DNA of 64,000 bases, from contig NZ_JAVDYJ010000001.1 in NCBI RefSeq assembly GCF_031458395.1, positions 1,488,001 through 1,552,000 on the forward strand. The letters run 5' to 3'. A program made the position numbers and the translations under genes. The stretch's first letter is position 1. Every line of letters starts with the position of its first letter. The notes under the pieces are model-generated. The model ran no database searches and was not told the origin of the DNA. It saw nothing but the letters and a program-made list of their open reading frames with translations. Source of the DNA: Enteractinococcus fodinae. Lineage in GTDB: Bacteria; Actinomycetota; Actinomycetes; Actinomycetales; Micrococcaceae. Below are positions 53,696-56,692 of the stretch, piece by piece.

Positions 53696-55450
53696 TTATT
53701 CAGTGGAGACGGTTACCTTTTCATCGCGCATGTATCGATTAACCGCCGAGGTAACTGCCTGCAGGGAAGCAGTGGCAGTATTATGATCCAATCCGATGCC
53801 CCACAGCACACGATCACCAATCGCAGCTTCCACATAGGCTGCGGCCATGGCTTCGCCGCCTTCAGTGAGCGCATGTTCGGTGTAGTCGAGGACCCGCACG
53901 TCGACGCCGGCTTCGTGGAACATTTTCACCAACGCGGAGATGGGGCCATTACCGGTGGCCGTGCGGGTGACAATCTCTCCGTCACGCTCCATCTGTACTT
54001 CCATCCAGAAATCGCCATCCTCGGTGGTCGACGATGTCGATGAAATCAACTGGTAACGACCCCAGCGTTGCTGTGGGTCATCGGTGGGAAGGTATTCGTT
54101 AGAAAACACATCCCACAGAGTTTCTGATGAGATCTCCCCACCATGGGTATCGGTGTACTCTTTGATGACGGCCGAGAATTCGACCTGAGCGCGACGCGGC
54201 AGATCCAGGTTGTGGTCGGCTTTGAGCATGTATGCGACCCCGCCCTTACCGGACTGGGAGTTGACCCGAATGACGGCTTCATAGCTGCGACCGATGTCTT
54301 CTGGGTCCACGGGCAGGTATGGGACACCCCAGTCCAAGTCTTCAGTCGTGACCCCTGCGTCAGCAGCGCGGGCATCCATATCCTCGAATCCTTTTTTGAT
54401 GGCATCTTGGTGAGAACCAGAAAATGCCGTGAACACGAGTTCGCCTGCCCACGGTGAACGCTCGTGGACCTTCATCTGGGTCGCGTACTCATAGACTTCC
54501 TGGATGCGATCCATATTCGAGAAATCAATTTCGGGATCAACACCCTGGGTGTAGAGGTTCATGCCCAAGGTGACGAGGTCAACGTTGCCGGTGCGCTCGC
54601 CATTGCCAAACAGGCAGCCTTCGATCCGGTCGGCTCCGGCCATGTAGCCCAACTCGGCTGCCGCCACGCCACTGCCTCGGTCATTGTGCGGGTGGAGCGA
54701 CAAGATGATGGCATCGCGGTTATCGATGTTTCGGTGCATCCATTCGATCTGATCGGCGTACCGGTTGGGTGTCGACATTTCGACGGTGGCCGGCAGGTTC
54801 AGGATCATCTGCCGGTCGGTGGAGGCTTCTAACACTTCAGCGACCCGATTCGAGATGTCGGCAGCAAAGTCCAGCTCGGTGCCGGTAAAGGACTCGGGAG
54901 AATACTGATAAATAACTTCGGTGTCGGTGAGCTGTTCTTCGTATTTGCGGCACAACATCGCGCCGCGCGTGGCGATATCGATGATGCCGGATTTCTCTTC
55001 CCGGAACACCACGCGACGCTGCAAGACAGAGGTGGAGTTGTACAAGTGCACGATCGCACGCGGTGCGCCCTCAATCGCTTCGTAGGTGCGCTCAATGAGG
55101 TGCTCACGAGATTGGGTCAGCACTTGGATGTGCACGTCTTCTGGAATGCGGTCTTCATCGATGAGTTGACGAACAAAGTCGTAATCAGTTTGCGAAGCCG
55201 AGGGGAACCCAACTTCAATTTCTTTGTAGCCCATTTCGACCAGCAATTCGAACATGGCCATTTTCCGGGCCGAGTCCATGGGGCTGACCAGCGCTTGGTT
55301 GCCATCCCGAAGATCTACTGCACACCAGCGTGGAGCCTGGGTGATGACTTTATCCGGCCAGGTGCGGTCTGGCAGGTGCACGTCGAGTTGCTGTTCGAAG
55401 GGCACGTATTTCTTATAGTTCATGCCGGAAGGCTGCTGAAATTTACGCAA
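53696..55450 (-). CDS. leuA: 2-isopropylmalate synthase
   Basis: This 584-residue enzyme condenses acetyl-CoA with 2-oxoisovalerate, the committed step of leucine synthesis. The TIM-barrel has the metal motif VDLRDGNQALVSPMD and the HxH ligands in LSLHPHNDRGSGVAAAEL. The C-terminal LeuA dimer domain (from about residue 440) mediates leucine feedback. It is the longer, yeast-like LeuA form common in actinobacteria. A leucine-rich leader peptide (55619-55717) lies 168 bp upstream, indicating control by leucyl-tRNA supply. recO and uppS follow. Confidence 0.95.
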   Translation of the reverse strand: MRKFQQPSGMNYKKYVPFEQQLDVHLPDRTWPDKVITQAPRWCAVDLRDGNQALVSPMDSARKMAMFELLVEMGYKEIEVGFPSASQTDYDFVRQLIDEDRIPEDVHIQVLTQSREHLIERTYEAIEGAPRAIVHLYNSTSVLQRRVVFREEKSGIIDIATRGAMLCRKYEEQLTDTEVIYQYSPESFTGTELDFAADISNRVAEVLEASTDRQMILNLPATVEMSTPNRYADQIEWMHRNIDNRDAIILSLHPHNDRGSGVAAAELGYMAGADRIEGCLFGNGERTGNVDLVTLGMNLYTQGVDPEIDFSNMDRIQEVYEYATQMKVHERSPWAGELVFTAFSGSHQDAIKKGFEDMDARAADAGVTTEDLDWGVPYLPVDPEDIGRSYEAVIRVNSQSGKGGVAYMLKADHNLDLPRRAQVEFSAVIKEYTDTHGGEISSETLWDVFSNEYLPTDDPQQRWGRYQLISSTSSTTEDGDFWMEVQMERDGEIVTRTATGNGPISALVKMFHEAGVDVRVLDYTEHALTEGGEAMAAAYVEAAIGDRVLWGIGLDHNTATASLQAVTSAVNRYMRDEKVTVSTE

Positions 55451-55618
55451 AGTGTATTCCTCATTCTATGACTGCCTGGTCCCGAGACGAGTTTAGTGGA
55501 CCAATACTGACAAACCGGTCTATGAGAGTTCATGTCGATCCGGTGGCAGGCCGTGAGATTCGCTCCGTAACGGGGTCCGACCCTACCTGGTGGCGTTCAA
55601 GGCGTGTGCTTGAAGAAC
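55451..55618 (-). promoter_or_regulatory. leuA 5' leader, structured region after leader peptide
   Basis: The RNA between the leader-peptide stop and leuA can fold: TTCAAG/CTTGAA (55609-55614 with 55596-55601) forms just past the stop codon, GGGTC/GACCC lies at 55573-55583, and GGTCC/GGACC occurs at about 55477-55503. A U-run terminator is not evident. Conserved pseudoknotted leaders (LEU element) are described upstream of actinobacterial leuA; this region is a candidate. Confidence 0.55.
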
Positions 55619-55717
55619 CTAGGCCCCGCTACGGCACGGTAGTAGAAGAAGACCTAGTAGAGCACCAAAAAGCACACGGTGAAGACCGTGGACGGGGGCG
55701 CTCTGAATGCGATGCAT
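55619..55717 (-). CDS. leuL: leuA leader peptide (leucine-rich, 32 residues)
   Basis: ATG 55717 opens a 33-codon frame, stop included: it begins MHRIQSAPVHGLHRV and continues LFGALLGLLLLPCRSGA. Eight of the 32 residues are Leu, six of them in the core ALLGLLLL, using CTA CTA and then CTT CTT CTA CTA. Such a run is the hallmark of a ribosome-stalling sensor for leucyl-tRNA. It sits between era and leuA on the leuA strand, with TAGGCT 7 nt before the ATG (near-leaderless) and foldable RNA after the stop. It is too short for routine gene calling. The mechanism, by termination or translation control, is not settled by sequence. Confidence 0.75.
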   Translation of the reverse strand: MHRIQSAPVHGLHRVLFGALLGLLLLPCRSGA

Positions 55718-55724
55718 GGTGTTT

Positions 55725-55730
55725 AGCCTA
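55725..55730 (-). promoter_or_regulatory. candidate -10 box of leu leader/leuA operon
   Basis: TAGGCT on the minus strand ends 7 nt before the leader-peptide ATG, so the transcript would start at or next to the start codon. It lies 12 bp past the era stop; the -35 region would fall inside era and is weak. Confidence 0.45.
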
Positions 55731-55741
55731 ACAGTACTGAC

Positions 55742-56692
55742 CTAAAACCCCAAACGGTTCATATGCTTGGGGTTACGCTGCCATTCTTTGGCAACTTTCA
55801 CCACCAGGTCAAGATACACCGGGGTGCCTAATAGCTTTCGGATGTTCCTCCGTGCTCGCTGGCCGATGGCGCGCAACTGTTGGCCACCCTTGCCGATGAT
55901 GATGCCTTTTTGGCTATCTCGCTCTACATAAATTTCAGCGTAAATATCTGTGATCGGTTCGTCTTCGGGTTGCCCCTCACGTAAGCCCATCTCAGTCACG
56001 ACTACCGCCAGGGAGTGGGGCAGCTCATCGAAAATATCTTCGAGCGCTGCTTCCCGAATCAGCTCAGCGACCATGATGTCATCCGGTTCATCGGTGACCT
56101 CGCCGTCTGGGTAGAGTGCCGGTGAGGTAGGTAAGTACTTGGTCAAGACATCGAGCACCGTGTCGACCTGCACGTCGCCTTTAACCGAAACCGGAACGAT
56201 TTCGGCGAATCCTTCACCAGTTTCTGGAGTGAGCAGTTCTTCGCCAAGTTGTTGGACGGCGATGAGCTGGTCGGCCAACACTCCCCGAGTGACAGTGTCG
56301 ACCTTCGTGACCAAAGCTATGACCGGAATGTTGTGCAACCCGGCAAGCTGTTCGGTGATGAACCGATCCCCCGGCCCGATCTTTTCGTTTGCCGGGATAC
56401 ACAGCGCCACCGCATCCATCCCCGATAATGTTTCGGCCACCAATTCGTTGAGGCGCTCCCCTAACAGAGTTCGGGGACGATGCAAACCGGGAGTGTCCAC
56501 GAGGATGAGCTGATAATCATCAGTGGTTACAATACCGCGAATGACTCGCCTAGTGGTTTGTGGCTTGGAGGAGGTAATGGCTACCTTGGAACCAACCATG
56601 GCATTTGTCAGCGTGGATTTGCCGGCGTTTGGTCTGCCGACAAGGCTGACGAACCCGGAACGATAGTGTTCCGGATAATCGGTTGACATCAT
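55742..56692 (-). CDS. era: GTPase Era
   Basis: This 316-residue GTPase is needed for 16S rRNA 3' end maturation. G-motifs: GRPNAGKSTLTNAM (G1), TTRRVIRG (G2), VDTPGLHRPR (G3) and TKVDT (G4). The C-terminal KH domain has GIIIGKGGQQLRAIGQRARR. GAGGAG precedes ATG 56692, which overlaps the stop of the CBS protein as ATGA. YbeY, encoded in the same run, also acts on rRNA. Confidence 0.96.
   Translation of the reverse strand: MMSTDYPEHYRSGFVSLVGRPNAGKSTLTNAMVGSKVAITSSKPQTTRRVIRGIVTTDDYQLILVDTPGLHRPRTLLGERLNELVAETLSGMDAVALCIPANEKIGPGDRFITEQLAGLHNIPVIALVTKVDTVTRGVLADQLIAVQQLGEELLTPETGEGFAEIVPVSVKGDVQVDTVLDVLTKYLPTSPALYPDGEVTDEPDDIMVAELIREAALEDIFDELPHSLAVVVTEMGLREGQPEDEPITDIYAEIYVERDSQKGIIIGKGGQQLRAIGQRARRNIRKLLGTPVYLDLVVKVAKEWQRNPKHMNRLGF

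Follow-up and report, generated by a model that had tools for sequence, protein, structure and literature searches.

A leucine-rich leader peptide upstream of leuA in Enteractinococcus fodinae as a new member of the LEU element

Introduction

A short minus-strand reading frame rich in leucine codons precedes leuA in the 64,000-nucleotide stretch of DNA analysed here (in the following, the window), and the questions it raises are whether it is a leader peptide at all, whether it senses leucine, and by which route the signal would reach leuA. The enterobacterial leuL attenuator is a classical terminator/antiterminator, unlike the element in the window. With classical ribosome-mediated attenuators the window shares a leader rich in codons for the regulated amino acid, but their U-run terminator, competing with an antiterminator, was not found in the window (55400-55850). 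Control of the leucine supply is also relevant to amino-acid production.

In 2005 Seliverstov et al. named a LEU element that is located upstream of leuA in most Actinobacteria and combines a Leu-codon leader peptide with a pseudoknot and with a base stem in which the Leu codons pair with the leuA Shine-Dalgarno sequence (PMC1262725). Its mechanism has been debated since then. Mutations in the S. coelicolor leuA leader had some effect but were inconsistent with classical attenuation, the paper concludes from its ref. 22 that mutation of the Leu codons leaves the regulation uninfluenced, and a binding protein was proposed instead (PMC1262725). Leaders of leuA are also reported by transcriptomics for S. 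lividans (PMC8079986), C. glutamicum (PMC4046766, PMC3890552) and C. diphtheriae (PMC5784534), and in (p)ppGpp-less C. glutamicum leuA and its leader were up after 5 min of starvation (PMC6892785).

The leader peptide and its conservation

The window carries leuA on the minus strand (53696..55450), encoding a 2-isopropylmalate synthase with the Pfam domains HMGL-like, IPMS_D2 and LeuA_dimer. The gene starts with TTG and is preceded by a Shine-Dalgarno-like GAGGAA (55457..55462) that is kept in an alignment of eight loci from the genus, with one gap in L002. Further upstream on the same strand, a frame at 55619-55717 starts with ATG and, as read from the sequence, encodes the 32-residue peptide MHRIQSAPVHGLHRVLFGALLGLLLLPCRSGA followed by a stop codon, which lies 168 bp from the leuA start (55450). 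All eight Leu codons of the leader are CTT or CTA, two codons that together account for 293 of the 1711 Leu codons in the 48 long reading frames of the window, and the final run CTT CTT CTA CTA (55640..55651) holds the presumed regulatory codons. The first-pass annotation had described a frame of 33 codons including the stop, the same Leu codons and the distance of 168 bp to leuA, and each of these details proved exact.

A whole-genome search located leuA in 57 of 59 relatives. In the eight loci from the same genus (a ninth genome, G007, has a partial leuA match and was left out) the leader frame, the Leu run and a CRS[GE]A tail (CRSGA or CRSEA) are kept without exception, and the sole gap within the frame corresponds to one 3-nt Leu codon; the downstream stretch has gaps of 1-2 nt. 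Two features set the genus apart from the LEU element as published (PMC1262725): the leader is 31-32 aa long, compared with 13-15 aa in many relatives, and its run consists mostly of CTA, which makes up 17 of the genus's 26 run codons as opposed to 145 of the 1711 Leu codons in the long window frames. Outside the genus CTA accounts for 23 of 377 run codons.

The wider comparison used 130 loci, reduced to 127 by removal of the duplicates L031-L033, and a leader of the same kind is present in 121 of these 127 leuA upstream regions. It was anchored by eye in L025, L034, L077, L078, L087 and L118, where the pattern had failed, while L012, L030, L069, L072, L074 and L100, which have no leader by pattern or by eye, are excluded from the later counts. 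The proposal that leuA is preceded by a leucine leader peptide is thus borne out both in the genus and well beyond it.

Promoter and transcript start

The leader is preceded by a putative promoter (55725..55753, minus strand) composed of a TG-extended -10 box TAGGCT (55730-55725), a weak -35-like TTGGGG (55753-55748) and a 17-nt spacer; the -10 box is separated from the ATG by 7 nt, just as had been noted from the sequence at the outset. A TAnnnT box is found 6-7 nt ahead of the leader start in all eight genus loci, and 111 of the 121 sequences have one 4-9 nt ahead of a leader start that is in frame, where 9.2 are expected from shuffles. The spacing is 6-7 nt in 103 of those 111, and in several of the ten sequences outside the range the box stands at a distance of 10 nt. 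The arrangement suggests that the window leader is probably translated from a leaderless mRNA, transcription beginning at the ATG or close to it. A counterpart is the leader LeuL1 of S. lividans leuA, MRFGLLLLSCRGEGL, which according to RNA-seq is transcribed leaderless and without a typical Rho-independent terminator (PMC8079986). It has the Leu run, the SCRG-like tail and the lack of such a terminator in common with the window leader, but the peptide is shorter, and the leaderless start comes from RNA-seq there and from prediction in the window.

Could the frame simply be open by chance? In its favour, a codon-position test on the eight genus sequences gave 13, 13 and 13 variable columns of 32 each, and with the variation spread so evenly the test shows no coding signal and no support for coding. 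Against it stand the conservation of the leader in all eight genus loci and in 121 of 127 regions overall, the position of the promoter, and indels that are in-frame only, and we regard the probability of a chance frame as negligible. The reading frame is genuine and encodes the leader peptide of a LEU element.

A pseudoknot that begins inside the leader

The first-pass annotation placed foldable RNA after the leader stop codon. Helices are indeed present there, but the main one begins inside the reading frame: the 5' strand of P1, CCGUAGCGGGG (55624..55634), falls within the last leader codons (Cys-Arg-Ser-Gly) and forms 11 pairs with the 3' strand CCCCGUUACGG (55565..55575). Inside the P1 loop lies the 5' strand of P2, GGUAGG(G)UCG (55578..55587), and its 3' strand CGGCCUGCC (55545..55553) closes an a-b-a'-b' pseudoknot by 9 pairs in the genus, all strands being read on the minus strand. 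The pseudoknot of two crossing helices after the Leu run, as known from the LEU element, is thereby present in the window.

Pairing is well kept among the eight genus sequences, with 98.9% of the cells paired in P1 and 95.7% in P2, and each helix has one both-side change. Across the 121 sequences P1 covaries: both-side changes occur at 8 of 12 pairs, and the 102 both-side cells compare with a shuffled mean of 25.5 (sd 6.9), a value of 102 being reached in no shuffle out of 500, while slid versions of P1 score far worse than the true register. For P2 the support is class-wide, the helix formed by a sequence's own strands exceeding the shuffled mean in 107 of 121 sequences and the mean obtained with other sequences' partners in 89 of 121. 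An earlier and looser search had found P1 in 120 and P2 in 96 of the 121. It had been suggested together with the original reading that alignment to related leuA upstream regions should reveal conserved Leu codons and covarying stems, and that a Leu run lost in close relatives would speak against a leucine sensor; the run is conserved, and P1 is the stem that covaries.

Two additional structures were seen in the genus. A hairpin P0 is located within the leader frame (55659..55704, minus strand) and is formed by AGAGCGCC/GGUGCUCU with an inner hairpin CACGGU/ACCGUG, 14 pairs in all, with one both-side change in each of the two helices. Between the pseudoknot and the Shine-Dalgarno sequence the genus has a three-way junction (55472..55549, minus strand) in which CUGCC/GGCAG surrounds ACCGGA/ACCGGU (55544-55539, 55519-55514) and UGGUCC/GGACCA (55503-55498, 55482-55477), a further difference from the published element (PMC1262725). 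As 14 of its 17 pairs are invariant, the junction shows conservation without covariation. Part of the P2 3' strand (55549-55545) can pair alternatively with 55476-55472 of the junction.

A terminator scan of 55400-55850 detected no intrinsic terminator between leader and leuA, in agreement with the initial remark that a U-run terminator seemed to be absent. One terminator-like match was obtained inside the leader frame (55690-55675), which is at chance level (1 compared with 0.5 in shuffles); its hairpin is kept in the genus, while the short T-run differs in the other members. Rfam 15 gave no match in 55400-55780 at E <= 1, and at gathering scores the whole 64-kb window yielded one tRNA only. 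With a Leu-run leader upstream of leuA, a pseudoknot of leader codons and downstream strands, and no obvious terminator, all shared with the element of 2005 (PMC1262725), the window copy is a fresh member of the already known LEU element carrying genus-specific features.

The codon run follows the downstream gene

An RNA model, R1, was built from the 121 leuA leader sequences. At E <= 0.01 it matched 87 of 99 relatives and 27 of 246 genomes from the phylum; at E <= 0.001 it matched 370 of 394 genomes from the class and 334 of 396 from the order, these samples overlapping one another and the training set. The window copy is the single R1 match in its own genome, and some other genomes have two or three. 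Nine extra regions fall two each before leuB, leuC and leuA (one of the latter being a second leuA), one before genes for an MFS transporter and an ABC ATPase, and two are unconvincing; L175 and L176 look like chance or have no gene assignment.

Thirty-six genomes with several matches provided a first set for comparing codon runs, from which 80 of 81 matches were fetched: 50 lie before leuA, 20 before leuB and 1 before leuC, and 9 have no gene assignment. Several matches with no gene identified (L253, L255, L256 and L258) are chance-like or were kept out of the gene classes. Val or Ile occurs in the codon run of all 20 leuB cases and in 5 of the 50 leuA cases (Fisher p 3.3e-13, a value that overstates independence because the genomes are related and the leuB copies may share one ancestor). 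A second scoring of the same set again gave 5 of 50 for leuA, although with different cases, four having Ile in the spacer position and L247 a real TTVL; the counts include L201, whose leader was taken in the wrong frame. Typical leuB leaders are MRQVLVLITCRGGA, MRSVFVLIDCRGEA and MSWTVRILRCRDGAR.

A second model, R2, was built from 24 leuB-type elements, and 40 new matches were picked by hand from the listed R2 matches. Val or Ile is present in 29 of 29 runs before leuB, all nine runs before leuA contain Leu and neither Val nor Ile, and two VRIL runs have no gene assignment; since R2 was trained on leuB-type runs, only the gene label is independent in this set. In many leuB-type loci leuB is followed by ilvE. 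In the window's own genome the 500 nt upstream of leuB contain no leader of this kind, and leuB has no R2 match at E <= 1e-6.

It is this correspondence between codon run and downstream gene that favours ribosome stalling as the basis of regulation. If the run follows the end products of the operon and the transcript starts at the leader, stalling is what one would predict, whereas a purely protein-bound RNA would not lead to that expectation. The leuB copies amount to a natural codon-swap experiment, in which the run has changed to Val/Leu/Ile and the RNA part is unchanged, and they make the stalling model directly testable; the gene-matched retuning of the run is the result that should interest specialists. 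A literature search that covered mostly titles, with subscription papers outside its scope, found no description of LEU elements at leuB or leuC, and the leuB copies of the element appear to be undescribed.

Several individual loci deserve mention. L168 and L172 together with 49 further loci (e.g. L198, L238, L244 and L261) have LEU-type elements before leuB, often with ilvE next, in which a Val/Leu/Ile run replaces Leu. A search with a single motif in 53 leuB-type loci showed a conserved small frame (MTEEQ...ALQEAMDRRDNGGETGH) situated between element and leuB in 6 of them (L206, L213, L221, L263, L264 and L265). LEU-type elements stand immediately before leuC in L169, L170 and L197, with the leaders MRAQRLLLRCRGGASS, MRRVVLLLSSRDETSF and MRAPRLLLRCRGGASS. 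In L173 (~541-1926) the leader MPQQLLLCCRSRC precedes a gene for an MFS transporter and then an ABC ATPase-like frame, possibly a leucine-linked transporter. L240 (LLV run) and L246 (LVV run) are followed by short frames that by eye resemble the C-terminal regulatory domain of LeuA and gave no Pfam match.

Proposed mechanism and alternatives

We consider it likely that the window holds a LEU element serving as the leucine-sensing leader of leuA and working by ribosome stalling. Transcription would most likely start at or near the leader AUG, and a ribosome would translate the leader of 32 aa. If charged leucyl-tRNA runs short, the ribosome would stall at the rare CUU/CUA codons with its leading edge short of the Cys-Arg-Ser-Gly codons, so that P1 could form and make the pseudoknot together with P2; with plentiful leucine it would reach the stop codon and cover the P1 5' strand. 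We propose that leuA can be expressed in the P1 state, and the output step might lie in Rho-dependent termination, in pausing or in the initiation of translation. The geometry is compatible with this scheme, as the P1 strand stays accessible while a ribosome is stalled at the final run's first CTT and is covered by a ribosome at the stop codon. In a footprint model P1 pairs with a probability of 0.96 when the ribosome occupies the Leu run, and of 0.00 at the stop, the latter value being imposed by masking. The original suggestion of a leucine sensor that works by ribosome stalling is accordingly supported in an indirect manner, by the rare Leu codons and by the codon run that tracks the downstream gene; stalling itself, the identity of the ON state and the output step are what we infer. 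Points against the stalling model are the behaviour of the S. coelicolor mutants (PMC1262725), the lack of a terminator downstream in the window and the flat codon-position variation of the leader.

A switch that sequesters the leuA Shine-Dalgarno sequence was also considered and is unsupported, the mean unpaired probability of that sequence in the footprint model being 0.38 when the ribosome is stalled, 0.49 at the stop and 0.36 when the RNA is free, so that accessibility hardly changes and is not higher in the stalled state.

How the signal is put out, and whether a ribosome is needed to sense it, can be pictured in other ways. That transcription is attenuated, either by a P2 hairpin that acts as terminator or by Rho where a U-run is absent, is a real possibility that we rate somewhat short of even. 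In L086, a record labelled as a Corynebacterium urealyticum MAG, TTTTTT comes directly after the P2 3' strand, and some lineages may accordingly use P2 as a terminator; Rho has been raised for other terminator-less leaders (PMC1262725). Attenuation of ilvB is moreover supported in Corynebacterium (PMC10272879) and in M. tuberculosis (PMC13236596), where a short upstream frame with branched-chain codons (the ilvB-II motif and the ilvB1 attenuator, respectively) likewise precedes a branched-chain biosynthesis operon. Those leaders differ from the window in having a U-run intrinsic terminator, another RNA structure and another gene, and no terminator was found downstream of the leader in the window. 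Less probable, and in our view unlikely, is a translational output in which the Leu run pairs with the leuA Shine-Dalgarno sequence, the base stem of 2005, and a leader ribosome opens the stem. After two of the 121 sequences had been dropped for want of a usable leuA start, the run fitted its own Shine-Dalgarno sequence better than random synonymous codons did in 93 of 111 cases outside the genus, a generous figure since the control draws the six Leu codons uniformly and thereby flatters the pyrimidine-rich runs of GC-rich genomes. In the window UUCUUC can pair with GAGGAA, six pairs being possible, but the window's genus exceeds the synonymous-codon control in only 3 of 8 loci, and in this respect appears to depart from the published element (PMC1262725). 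Such a stem is also unlikely at leuB, as the leuB starts are mostly several hundred nt from the element.

Quite improbable, finally, is that the pseudoknot serves to bind a regulatory protein, the suggested candidates being orthologs of the DEAD-box helicase-like M. leprae ML1624, with translation of the leader being incidental. This was proposed from the phylogenetic pattern and the S. coelicolor mutants (PMC1262725), and the strong conservation of the pseudoknot agrees with it. If translation were irrelevant, however, one would expect neither a codon run that tracks the downstream gene nor a start codon 6-7 nt behind the -10 box in 103 of 121 sequences. Returning to ribosome stalling, we lean towards a broader picture in which the LEU element would be a portable, leaderless, ribosome-read switch of the Actinomycetia whose run is retuned to the operon, with Leu at leuA, at second leuA copies and at leuC, and a mix of Val, Leu and Ile at leuB-ilvE. 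The peptide's second half would be kept as an RNA strand that reads the ribosome position via the pseudoknot, a terminator would not be needed in most lineages, and the window's genus would have given up the Leu-run/Shine-Dalgarno stem for rare CTA codons.

Operon context

Downstream of leuA the conserved N-terminus of recO is not preceded by ATG, GTG or TTG. A putative CTG start (53696-53703, CTGAATAA) overlaps the leuA stop by 8 nt, and the uppS start follows 12 nt after recO. Judged from this arrangement, in which the overlapping CTG fits a recO that has no ordinary start and uppS comes 12 nt behind, linkage and co-transcription of leuA, recO and uppS are plausible, and if the three genes are one operon, leucine control would extend to genes outside the pathway. 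The overlap of the CTG with the leuA stop is present in all eight genus loci.
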